64,000 nucleotides of DNA from Methylotenera sp. Lineage in GTDB: Bacteria > Pseudomonadota > Gammaproteobacteria > Burkholderiales > Methylophilaceae. Below are positions 60,268 through 64,000 of this stretch, one piece after another; within the stretch, counting starts at the first letter, position 1; each line of letters opens with the position of its first letter. Below the pieces are notes generated by a model that searched no databases, was not told the origin of the DNA, and saw only the letters and a program-made list of their open reading frames with translations. Both the position numbers and the translations under genes were made by a program. The stretch covers positions 218,001-282,000 of the forward strand of contig NZ_JAUXOY010000014.1 of assembly GCF_030684185.1 (NCBI RefSeq). The letters are read 5' to 3'.

Positions 60268-61803
60268 TCATCCCAACTTGTTATCAGCTATGTGATATTT
60301 TGGGTCTTCCAATACATTCACTTCTATCATGCCTTTGGCTTTATCTAGTAGTTCCAGGCAATCTTGACTAAGATGTTTTAAATGCAGCTGTTTACCAACT
60401 GACTGATAGCGCTCTGCAAGTGAGTCAATTGCGGCTAGTGCTGAATGATCTGCGACCTTTGCATTTTTAAAATCAATCGCAACTTCTTGTGGATCATCAG
60501 CAGGAGAAAACAGATTCTGAAAAGCAGCAATTGAAGCGAAAAATAATGTTCCCTGCAATTCGTATACTTTCCAGCCATGTTCATTGGTGCGCGTTGTTAC
60601 GCTGATTTGTTTGGCATGTTCCCATGCGAACACCAAGGCAGAGAAAATAACACCAACAATTACAGCAATCGCTAAATCAGCAACGACTGTAATACTTGCT
60701 ACCAATACGATAACCAATAAATCAGGCTTAGGTACTTTGCCATATAATCTAAAGCTTCCCCACTCAAAGGTTTTTTCTGCAACGACAAACATTACGCCAA
60801 TCAATGCTGCGAGTGGAATCATTTCAATCCAGTGTGATGCAAACAGAATAAATGAAAGCAAAAATACCGCAGTGGCTATGCCTGAAAGTCTTTTTAATGC
60901 ACCGTTATTCACGTTAATCATACTTTGACCAATCATGGCACATCCACCCATTCCACCGAAGAAACCTGTCACCACGTTGGCTATGCCTTGAGCGAGCGAC
61001 TCGCGGTTAGGCTTGCCTCTGGTGTCGGTCATGTCGTCAATAAGGTTAAGTGTCAGCAAAGTTTCAATCAAGCCAATCGCTGCCAGTATTAAGGCGTAGG
61101 GAAAAATAATAGTAAGCGTTTCAAAATTGAATGGCACAGTGGGTAAATGGAAGTTAGGCAAACCACCAGCGATAGAGCCTAAATCGCCTACGGTTTTTGT
61201 ATCGACCTTCAGGAAAGTTACACCGAATGATACTAGCATGATGGCGGCTAAGGTCGATGGAATGGCTTTGGTAAGTTTAGGTAACAGGTAGATTACTGCC
61301 ATAGTTAAGGCTATTAACCCCAGCATGATATAAAGAGCGTAGCCGCTCATCCGGGTGGCAGTACCATCTTCAGCGACAGTTTTAAAATGCCCAAATTGCG
61401 CCAGAAAAATCACAATGGCTAAGCCATTTACAAAGCCCAGCATCACTGGGTACGGCACCATGCGGATAAATTTACCCAGCTTGGCTACTGCAAACAGTAT
61501 TTGCAGTATGCCCATGAGTACAACTGTAGCAAATAAATACTCAACGCCATGCTGTACAACCAGTGCCACCATCACTACAGCCAGAGCGCCGGTTGCGCCA
61601 GAAATCATGCCTGGGCGGCCGCCAAAGGCAGAGGTGATGAAGGCAACGATTACGGCGGCATACAAGCCTGTGAGAGGTGACACGTGGGCAATAAGGGCAA
61701 AGGCAATAGCTTCTGGCACCATAGCCAATGCGACGGTTAAGCCACTAAGTAAATTGGTTTTAATTTCTTGAGGGTTAAGGTTGTTGATGTTTAAAATTGA
61801 CAA
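60268..61803 (-). CDS. SulP family anion transporter with STAS domain
   Basis: A 511-residue inner-membrane transporter. The transport core opens with SGLTVALAMVPEAIAFALIA and continues with PGMISGATGALAVVMVALV and GGCAMIGQSMINVNNG; a cytoplasmic STAS domain follows from about 410 (EVAIDFKNAKVADHSALAAID). Family substrates are sulfate, bicarbonate or other anions; the sequence alone does not decide. It is downstream of the peptide-maturation operon on the same strand, but a 242-bp gap suggests its own promoter. Confidence 0.9.
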   Translation of the reverse strand: MSILNINNLNPQEIKTNLLSGLTVALAMVPEAIAFALIAHVSPLTGLYAAVIVAFITSAFGGRPGMISGATGALAVVMVALVVQHGVEYLFATVVLMGILQILFAVAKLGKFIRMVPYPVMLGFVNGLAIVIFLAQFGHFKTVAEDGTATRMSGYALYIMLGLIALTMAVIYLLPKLTKAIPSTLAAIMLVSFGVTFLKVDTKTVGDLGSIAGGLPNFHLPTVPFNFETLTIIFPYALILAAIGLIETLLTLNLIDDMTDTRGKPNRESLAQGIANVVTGFFGGMGGCAMIGQSMINVNNGALKRLSGIATAVFLLSFILFASHWIEMIPLAALIGVMFVVAEKTFEWGSFRLYGKVPKPDLLVIVLVASITVVADLAIAVIVGVIFSALVFAWEHAKQISVTTRTNEHGWKVYELQGTLFFASIAAFQNLFSPADDPQEVAIDFKNAKVADHSALAAIDSLAERYQSVGKQLHLKHLSQDCLELLDKAKGMIEVNVLEDPKYHIADNKLG

Positions 61804-62045: not shown

Positions 62046-62837
62046 TTAGTCACCAAGGTTAGATGAAGCTGTACCAAGAATCACGCCTTGGCTTCTTAGG
62101 TTCTCCAGAGTTTCCAGCCCAAATTGAATGATAGTTTCAGGATGTGGTTGCGCTATCTCATTAGCGAGCAATGTGAGTGCTTGCTCACCAGTGATTTTAT
62201 TTTGTTGTAATAATAAAAGCAGTCTAAATGTAATAGCATTTAATTCTGTAAACTTAACCAAATCCTCTGTGTTGCGGTGCACCAAAAGATGTGTGCTTTG
62301 TTTTTGTTTGGGTTTGTTACGAAGTGAAATTTTGTGCACGGCATAGTCATAATGCAGTAATTGCATTGTTGGTGCAAAAACTGGGTGTCCTGTGAGTAAA
62401 TTACCTGCTAGGTTGATTTTTTCACTGGCCAACTCAGGCGCTGGCATTGAAGCTACCAACAGTTCTATCCATTCATAATGGCATAGGCTTGCGAGATAAG
62501 GCGGCAGTAACGGCTTAACATCAGTGTTTGCATGTGTGTTTGTGTCACTTAAAAAACTTAAGAACTCTTCAGGAATTTGTCTAAAAATTGGCGTATTTGC
62601 AGCGTGTTCCCGCAAAAAAGCTTGAGTTAATTTTAACCATGCACGCTTGCCTAAAACTTTTTGCGCAACGGGAAAGCAGGCAGATACTGATGCAAATAGA
62701 TTATTAAACACAATTTCTTGATATACAGCCATGCGGTTAGCATCCACGCCTTGAGGACGTGGCTGATGGTGTGGGTTGCGTATGTGTGCGGTAAATGCTA
62801 ATTGATAGCGCTGAAAGCTCGGCAGGTTAGCACTCAT
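62046..62837 (-). CDS. hvfC: DUF2063 HvfC/BufC-like RiPP maturation partner
   Basis: A 263-residue protein of the DUF2063 putative DNA-binding/RiPP partner family. The N-terminal domain has FTAHIRNP, RMAVYQEIVFNNLFASVSACFPVAQKVLG and WLKLTQAFLREH; a C-terminal domain (~150-263) completes the usual length. In copper-peptide systems this partner binds the precursor and assists the DUF692 enzyme. Its ATG overlaps the hvfB stop by 4 bp, so the two are made together. The symbol is assigned by family and position. Confidence 0.85.
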   Translation of the reverse strand: MSANLPSFQRYQLAFTAHIRNPHHQPRPQGVDANRMAVYQEIVFNNLFASVSACFPVAQKVLGKRAWLKLTQAFLREHAANTPIFRQIPEEFLSFLSDTNTHANTDVKPLLPPYLASLCHYEWIELLVASMPAPELASEKINLAGNLLTGHPVFAPTMQLLHYDYAVHKISLRNKPKQKQSTHLLVHRNTEDLVKFTELNAITFRLLLLLQQNKITGEQALTLLANEIAQPHPETIIQFGLETLENLRSQGVILGTASSNLGD

Positions 62838-63715
62838 GATATTTGTTGATTGCTTTGGTTAAGTTGTAACTGGGCAATTTTATTGATTTCGCTCATCAAA
62901 ATTTTCAAAGGTGGGATATTGGTGTCTCGTTCTAGCAGGGTCGGGAAAGTGCCAAATAGTTGGTAAGATTCTTCGAGCAAAGCCCAAACAGGGTCAATGA
63001 TGTTTTCACCATGTGTATCTATCAATAAATTCGGGGTTTGTTGGTAATGCCCCGCCACATGGCTATAGATAATACGTTCACCTGGGATGCCACGTAAAAA
63101 TTCATGCGGGTTAAAGTTGAAGTTAACGCTATTCACGTAAATGTTATTGATGTCTAGGTGAAGCAAGCAATCCGCTTCATCTAGCACGGCTTTAAGGAAT
63201 GTTAGTTCGCTCATTTCTGACACGGGCGCCGCTACATAAAATGAGGCATTTTCAATACCAATCTGCTGCCCTAAAATATCTTGTGTTTGACGTATGCGTT
63301 GAGCTACGTAATGCACAGCTTCTTCAGTAAATGGAATGGGTAGCAGGTCATATAAATAACCTTGTTTACCTTTATAGCCATCCGTGGAGTAGCTTAAATG
63401 TTCGGTGTAAATGGGTATCTGATACTGATGCAGAAAGTTTTTGACTTGTTTTACAAAGCCAACATTAAGCGGGCTTAGCCCACCTAGTGATAGGCACAAG
63501 CCGTGACAAACAATCGGGTATCGTTCTACAAACCAATCAAGTTGCTTGGCGGCTTTGCCACCTGCATTAATCCAGTTTTCAGGGGCAATTTCAAGAAAGT
63601 TGATATTGGCGATAGACTCCTCGCCAAATGCAGCTTGAATTTGGGGAATCAGCTCGCGCTTTAACCCCAAACCCACGCCATTGATTTTAGATTTTGCATG
63701 ATTAAAAGTGGTCAT
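62834..63715 (-). CDS. hvfB: DUF692 multinuclear iron oxidase (MNIO), HvfB/BufB/MbnB-like
   Basis: A 293-residue TIM-barrel protein of the DUF692/MNIO family, which includes methanobactin MbnB. Potential iron ligands sit in the expected blocks: FLEIAPENW, CHGLCLSLGG, TEHLSYS, GIENASFY, LHLDINNIYVNS, SHVAGH, DTHGENI and LERD. Members use a two- or three-iron site and O2 to rewrite peptide cysteines (for example to oxazolone/thioamide or thiooxazole groups). It is 79 bp downstream of the cysteine-repeat precursor and coupled to hvfC, a complete enzyme-partner-substrate set. Confidence 0.92.
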   Translation of the reverse strand: MTTFNHAKSKINGVGLGLKRELIPQIQAAFGEESIANINFLEIAPENWINAGGKAAKQLDWFVERYPIVCHGLCLSLGGLSPLNVGFVKQVKNFLHQYQIPIYTEHLSYSTDGYKGKQGYLYDLLPIPFTEEAVHYVAQRIRQTQDILGQQIGIENASFYVAAPVSEMSELTFLKAVLDEADCLLHLDINNIYVNSVNFNFNPHEFLRGIPGERIIYSHVAGHYQQTPNLLIDTHGENIIDPVWALLEESYQLFGTFPTLLERDTNIPPLKILMSEINKIAQLQLNQSNQQIS

Positions 63716-63794
63716 GTTAAATCTAATTAAAACTAAACCAGTAATTCATCTGGGTTTATTTACTTGGTATATTTATTAGGATTATTTATACGGT

Positions 63795-64000
63795 TTATTT
63801 AGTAGTGCTTTCCATTTCTTTTTTCATTTCAGCGCTGCAAGAACCCTCTTTCATTTTCTCTGCGCTGCAAGATCCTTCACGCGCTTTATCGGCTGACCCT
63901 TTCATCTCTGCACTACAAGATCCATCTTTCATTTTTTCTGCACTGCATGAACCTTCTTTAGCTTTTTCAGTTTGAGTCTTTTTTGTTTTTTTCATGTTAG
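63795..64000 (-). CDS. Cysteine-repeat RiPP precursor, HvfA-like (start beyond window)
   Basis: At least 66 residues built almost entirely from Lys, Glu, Ala, Ser, Met, Gly and Cys. Four copies of (E/D)GSCSAE (three EGSCSAE and one DGSCSAE) each carry one Cys, spaced 10 or 16 residues apart by lysine/methionine-rich linkers. Known HvfA/bufferin-type peptides carry EGKCG repeats that the DUF692 enzyme modifies to bind copper; here the motif is a variant. An in-frame ATG at 63995 exists, but the frame is open to the window end and no signal peptide is seen. Relatives are exported, so the true start is probably outside. Confidence 0.75.
   Translation of the reverse strand, partial: NMKKTKKTQTEKAKEGSCSAEKMKDGSCSAEMKGSADKAREGSCSAEKMKEGSCSAEMKKEMESTTK

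Follow-up and report, generated by a model that had tools for sequence, protein, structure and literature searches.

The hvfABC locus at the edge of a 64,000-nucleotide stretch of DNA from a methylotrophic Methylotenera (the window) raises the question of whether a DUF692 enzyme can act on cysteines that lie in (E/D)GSCSAE units rather than in EGKCG-type units. The answer that we favor, with a probability of about 60%, is that this HvfABC-type operon makes an exported thiooxazole Cu(I) chelator and that its enzyme is relaxed, such that it would modify the GSCS units as well.

The operon and its precursor

A sequence-only reading of this DNA had described a precursor with four evenly spaced (E/D)GSCSAE units, followed by a DUF692 enzyme and a DUF2063 partner, as an HvfABC- or bufferin-like operon. 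The HvfABC-type assignment holds, as both proteins exceed the cut-offs of their NCBI models (Table 1), and hvfB and hvfC overlap by 4 bp, as claimed. All four variant units are present on the minus strand; they are not evenly spaced, however, their Cys-to-Cys distances being 10, 16, and 10 residues, and two further units, both canonical, lie just outside the window. Reading the frame past position 64000, as that reading had advised, yields a complete precursor of 129 aa. The ATG at 63995 is internal to the frame, and the start is an ATG 184 bases past the edge, with an AAGGA-like ribosome site in front of it. The N-terminus carries what, judged by eye, is a Sec-like signal ending in VNA and followed by AENPF, and the outcome that would have counted against the operon, a frame without a plausible start or secretion signal, did not occur. 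The array runs DGKCG, AGKCG, EGSCSAE, DGSCSAE, EGSCSAE, EGSCSAE, so that K-C-G is found in two of the six units and S-C-S in four. The GSCSAE pattern, written as 18 degenerate bases, has six matches in the 2.72-Mb genome, four of which are the hvfA units in one frame; this count, together with the family-wide conservation and purifying selection described below, rules out a chance origin of the repeats.

Table 1. Features of the hvfABC locus and its surroundings (window coordinates; positions above 64000 are equivalents beyond the edge)
Feature	Position	Strand	Remarks
SulP-family transporter with STAS domain	60268-61803	-	just downstream of hvfC
hvfC, DUF2063 + NGO1945_C partner, 263 aa	62046..62837	-	PF09836, PF22106; NF050145 259.4, cut-off 142
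hvfB, MNIO (PF05114) enzyme, 293 aa	62834..63715	-	PF05114 327 bits; NF003818 387.3, cut-off 360
HvfB codons Asp264 (catalytic base by homology) and Thr265 (gate, FonB Phe250 site)	62921..62926	-	
HvfB codons Lys19-Arg20	63656..63661	-	taken as FonB Arg15-Arg16 site
hvfA precursor gene, 3' part	63795..64000	-	full gene up to equivalent of 64184, beyond window
EGSCSAE, 4th variant unit	63828..63848	-	
EGSCSAE, 3rd variant unit	63858..63878	-	
DGSCSAE, 2nd variant unit	63906..63926	-	
EGSCSAE, 1st variant unit	63936..63956	-	
Anti-sigma factor gene	equivalent of 64229-64501	- (same as hvfA)	upstream of hvfA
ECF sigma factor gene	equivalent of 64506-65078	- (same as hvfA)	upstream of hvfA

The precursor does not reach the cut-off of either NCBI HvfA model (NF050188, 27.0 against 95; NF050137, 18.6 against 19.5). 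Among 20 relatives, 18 match NF050188 and 11 match NF050137 at E up to 0.01, and the one inspected in full, L223, passes NF050137 at 26.1 and fails NF050188. EGKCG precursors have been modeled as a beta-helix fold, according to the accessible text of PMC12452194; the precursor of one relative was modeled as disordered (pLDDT 46), which speaks neither for nor against a beta-helix.

The predicted structure of HvfB (pLDDT 88.8) has 3bww as its best match (TM 0.78 by query length, 40% identity), with TglH and MbnB next, and HvfC is a relative of 3dee. Twelve columns that correspond to catalytic or putative metal-binding positions of the MNIO family (His71, His106, Glu155, Asn156, Asp188, Asn191, His219, His223, Asp233, His235, Glu262, and Asp264) are intact in 321 to 323 of the 323 aligned HvfB sequences; Glu105 is replaced by Asp in 13 of the 323.

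Besides the sigma and anti-sigma genes, the same strand upstream of hvfA carries genes for a DUF1841 protein and for one with a FIST domain. The zinc motif HxxxCxxC, described for NMB2145 (PMC2893595, accessible part), is matched in the anti-sigma protein by HLFLCGAC. We surveyed the neighborhoods of 80 loci (43 from Methylophilaceae and 37 others, with flanks of at most 3.5 kb; the window genome is not among them) and found both the sigma and the anti-sigma gene within the flanks of 38/43 Methylophilaceae loci versus 14/37 others. A DoxX-like gene, sought with a single query, was within the flanks of 4/43 versus 15/37, and none was seen at the hvfABC locus of the window. The SulP transporter gene was rejected as an operon member, as it is beside hvfABC in 0/43 Methylophilaceae loci within the same flanks and likewise in none of the 37 others. 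The Neisseria rpoE operon (NMB2140-NMB2145/NGO1943-NGO1948), as portrayed in the accessible parts of PMC2893595 and PMC2954202, has in common with this locus an ECF sigma factor, a zinc-motif anti-sigma factor, and genes for DUF692, DUF2063, and small exported proteins; it includes DoxX and is cotranscribed and autoregulated, whereas the window locus is known from gene adjacency only. H. influenzae RpoE2 is described as responding to hypochlorite, and one operon of its regulon as encoding a DoxX-like protein (PMC7907618, accessible part). The probable regulator of hvfABC is the ECF sigma factor whose gene lies shortly before it.

Variant units and selection across Methylophilaceae

In 104 of 187 Methylophilaceae genomes we found an HvfB orthologue, at an identity of roughly 60% or higher, and a precursor lies upstream of hvfB in 103 of these 104 loci. 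The first Cys pair is kept in 100 of the 103 precursors, and its counted cysteines (n = 196) are preceded by Lys in 184 cases and followed by Gly in 146. The later cysteines (n = 378) are preceded by Ser in 149 cases, Lys in 137, Ala in 49, and Asn in 24 and are followed by Ser in 189, Gly in 128, and His in 42; E or D stands at -3 in 357 and Gly at -2 in 359. The sequence-only reading had proposed a search for its repeat beside DUF692 genes in this family, and the exact motif (E/D)GSCSAE indeed occurs 51 times in 30 Methylophilaceae loci, with GxCSA(E/D) occurring 156 times in 65. By these counts, the variant cysteine repeat is a family trait of Methylophilaceae.

Two further features of the precursors can be recorded here. 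His stands beside Cys in the units of L042, L045, and L086-L107, among others (SCHHDK, SCSHDK, ACHASK), and of the 118 His residues beyond the first pair, 75 come one or two positions after a Cys (+1 or +2), a pattern suggestive of added metal ligands. Three precursors (L030, L038, and L099) have the first Cys pair only, their later units having lost their Cys.

Selection was assessed in 28 locus pairs with HvfB identity of 85% or more, after the exclusion of 31 pairs that differed in length and 1 that was nearly identical; loci are shared between pairs. In the region after the first pair, dN/dS was 0.068, and it was 0.091 and 0.055 at HvfB identities of 80% and 90%, respectively. In the 85% set, pN was lowest at Cys (0.029) and highest at -1 (0.090), with 0.039 both at +1 and at the remaining positions; the +1 position is therefore constrained about like the rest and the -1 position least. 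In the 80% set, which includes two pairs with less than 45% identity in the region, pN at Cys is higher, at 0.080, and exceeds that at +1 (0.054). As judged by these ratios, the later HvfA units are under strong purifying selection, and dN/dS values of 0.055 to 0.091 lead us to reject drift of the later repeats. It is accordingly very improbable that the later units are decaying relics that the enzyme no longer reads: the three precursors that have lost their later Cys agree with such decay, but neither the dN/dS range nor the low pN at Cys in the 85% set does.

The gate residue of HvfB and the residue after Cys

In FonB, the enzyme of the fontiphorin system, Phe250 comes after the proposed catalytic base, Asp249, and is modeled in contact with Lys3 and Gly5 of EGKCG, that is, with both Cys flanks; changes at Arg15, Arg16, and Phe250 altered substrate tolerance, and wild-type FonBC was blocked by variants at position 5 other than Ala (all from the accessible text of PMC13097082). 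We placed the Phe250 site, here called the gate, at Asp264-Thr265 of the window HvfB by the ERD motif via 3bww (ERDF), with FonB itself outside the alignment. A class sample of 369 genomes contains 119 HvfB places that lie outside Methylophilaceae and score above the cut-off. We read every one of them; the gate was Phe in 105, another residue in 13, and truncated in 1. Within Methylophilaceae it is Phe in only 1 of 103, with one further truncated, and the window HvfB has Thr. The Arg15-Arg16 site likewise reads RR in 110/119 outside the family and KR in 102/104 within it. The variant repeat, which the sequence-only reading had suggested could alter the modification, is supported as a trait of the whole family, and the enzyme has changed in a corresponding way.

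We compared the gate with the residue after Cys in a pooled set of 323 loci, 277 of them distinct, of which 240 could be used (no precursor was found at 33, 2 had fewer than two Cys, and 2 lacked a gate). The set is not neutral, as the lack of Phe in L182 prompted the search that added L208-L222, and L332-L334 score below the cut-off. Outside Methylophilaceae, Gly follows 797 of 824 Cys in the 120 loci with an aromatic gate, another residue being found in 16 loci, versus 92 of 132 Cys in the 20 loci with a non-aromatic gate, another residue being found in 15. When only residues that are neither Gly nor Ala are considered, the figures are 9/120 versus 6/20 loci. The 99 distinct non-aromatic Methylophilaceae loci have Gly after 266 of 555 Cys, and 75 of them have at least one Cys without Gly after it. 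In the class sample alone (87 of 119 usable), any non-Gly residue at +1 was found in 10/76 aromatic versus 8/11 non-aromatic loci. Some of the unusual residues seen with an aromatic gate follow Cys unlike the repeat units, e.g., in L121 and L193.

The same association is seen on a finer scale. In one other genus, nine Phe-gate loci are Gly-only at +1 and five of six Leu-gate loci have Ala or Ser, the sixth Leu-gate locus (L222) being Gly-only; the single Phe-gate locus of Methylophilaceae (L105) has Gly after all five of its Cys. Loss of Phe appears from this distribution to be permissive for other residues after Cys; it is not sufficient, because 25 non-Phe Methylophilaceae loci have Gly-only after Cys.

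In L319 and L324, whose gate is Phe, Cys is repeatedly followed by Ala (GTCAGMKK, GNCAGMKK), which agrees with the acceptance of Ala by FonBC. In the L326 precursor, each counted Cys is followed by Asp or Ala (KKCDKDGKCAKGKCAKGKCAG); the HvfB of this locus has an Asn gate. L187 (gate Leu) and L310 (gate Phe) have HvfB-linked precursors that are built differently, from CGTFCGG or KCGNICGG units.

On a FastTree tree built without the two trait columns, 12 gate changes are needed. With any non-Gly residue at +1 as the trait, the independent pairs (7 on supported branches) gave 4.5 changes the same way and 0.6 opposite (median p 0.22). With less than 85% Gly as the trait, they gave 4.7 and 0.1 (median p 0.06), a threshold chosen after the data were seen, the present/absent version agreeing in direction with weaker support. 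In an earlier run, with 219 loci, 3.9 of 5 pairs went the same way and none the opposite way (p 0.125). The pairs showed no association for +1 residues neither Gly nor Ala (1.8 same way, 0.7 opposite, p 1) or for a non-Lys -1 residue (0.7 same way, 1.5 opposite, p 1). A Pagel-type likelihood test of correlated evolution, in our own implementation and with some rates ending at their set limits, gave p 1.7e-5 for the 85% trait with all loci and 5.5e-5 without Methylophilaceae, and p 9e-4 and 0.013, respectively, for +1 residues neither Gly nor Ala; tests of this type can be misled by single clades. No correlation of the gate with the -1 residue was found by the same test (p 0.11 with all loci, 0.29 without Methylophilaceae). 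Taken together, these comparisons make a good, though not conclusive, case that residues other than Gly are allowed after Cys once the aromatic gate is lost.

The association could instead be an effect of lineage, Methylophilaceae having lost the aromatic gate and separately drifted in the repeat while HvfB is generally tolerant. Methylophilaceae are one side of one branch and so count once, several of the non-aromatic gates outside the family belong to low-scoring relatives, the independent-pairs test is not significant, and some Phe-gate loci have Ser after Cys (e.g., L271 and L278) or the repeated Ala of L319 and L324. We nevertheless consider this explanation unlikely, given that the gate and the +1 residue change together inside one genus and that the Pagel-type test keeps its low p value when Methylophilaceae are removed.

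We give about the same low weight to a hybrid peptide, in which HvfBC modifies the first pair only, yielding two thiooxazoles, and the later GSCS and SCH cysteines are kept by selection as free thiolate (and His) metal ligands or as a redox buffer. The first pair is the constant part of the precursor, both in its retention and in its preceding Lys; FonBC is described as blocked when position 5 is other than Gly or Ala (PMC13097082, accessible text); and His lies near the later Cys as added ligands would. The hybrid leaves unexplained, however, why the gate and the substrate flanks changed jointly and why the same trend appears in other families, and the later units keep, at -3 and -2, the E/D-G of the enzyme's own motif. 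A relaxed enzyme that also modifies the later units thus remains the reading that we prefer.

Proposed mechanism and relation to known systems

On that reading, stress would free the sigma factor, and the precursor, HvfB, and HvfC would be made. HvfC would hold the precursor in the cytoplasm while HvfB oxidizes its Cys to 5-thiooxazoles, the chemistry reported for HvfA and fontiphorin in the accessible text of PMC13097082 and PMC13419390. The Sec-like signal would then send the HvfA peptide to the periplasm, where it may chelate Cu(I) under copper or oxidative stress. In Methylophilaceae, where the aromatic residue after the catalytic Asp is replaced by a small or aliphatic one, the non-aromatic gate would relax the demand for Gly after Cys, and GSCS, GKCS, GACS, and SCH units would join the conserved first pair as substrates. 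The thiooxazole chemistry, copper binding, export, and sigma control of this system are all inferred.

The closest described systems, HvfABC/oxazolin of Haemophilus influenzae and fontiphorin FonABC (captophorins, MNIO-PME1), share with the window locus, as far as the accessible text of PMC13419390 and PMC13097082 goes, an MNIO, a DUF2063-RRE partner, a precursor with a Sec or Sec-like signal, E/D-G-x-C units, and the gene order A-B-C. Unlike theirs, the window precursor has K-C-G in its first two units only and G-S-C-S in the other four, and unlike FonB, the window HvfB has Thr265 for Phe and Lys19 for Arg15. Bufferins (Buf1, DUF2282; Buf2, Cys-Lys; PMC12452194, accessible part) have in common with it an MNIO and a DUF2063 partner, a precursor with a Sec or Sec-like signal, and a copper-buffering role, which for the window peptide would be an inference. 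The earlier suggestion of a bufferin fails in the strict sense: the full HvfA precursor has no match to DUF2282 (PF10048) at E up to 1 and no Cys-Lys, and Thr265 stands at the gate where Buf2 enzymes have Asp. The genome's other MNIO locus, whose precursors are of the Cys-Lys type, lies elsewhere, in a separate operon (L338:1225-3546; G000:C9, about 166.2-168.5 kb). Its PF05114 enzyme has Asp at the gate (ERDDN), and the operon also encodes a DUF2063 partner and a tandem pair of 88-aa Cys-Lys precursors; this locus fits the published Asp/Cys-Lys pairing.

The three-gene HvfABC operon is thus of a known kind, and what appears altered here is the cysteine repeats and the putative substrate-reading residue of the enzyme. 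GSCSAE, GKCSAE, and CSAEKMK were not found in a literature text search, and EGSCS gave matches that by title concern other subjects; the motif table of PMC13097082 (Table S2 and Data set S2; 6,906 repeat peptides) lay outside the search and may list EGSCS-type units. Methylotenera and Methylophilaceae are not mentioned in the text of the MNIO literature searched. More tentatively, and with somewhat less than even confidence, we propose that the Methylophilaceae MNIOs are a naturally relaxed thiooxazole-forming class in which the gate residue, next to the catalytic Asp, sets the residue after Cys: Phe would go with Gly; Asp with Lys; and a small, polar, or aliphatic residue with Ser, His, Ala, and Asn as well as Gly. 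Their peptides would carry Ser- or His-flanked thiooxazoles beside two canonical sites, which, if true, would be a ligand set not met in earlier descriptions.

EGKCG-based models miss the window precursor and fit its relatives unevenly; surveys may therefore undercount such peptides. The selectivity of thiooxazole-forming MNIOs is being mapped, according to the accessible text of PMC13097082, by mutagenesis of one enzyme, FonB. Methylophilaceae offer a natural experiment, in which two of the three FonB selectivity residues (the Arg15 and Phe250 sites) have changed along with the substrate flanks, and these natural changes in gate and repeat make the question of enzyme selectivity directly testable.
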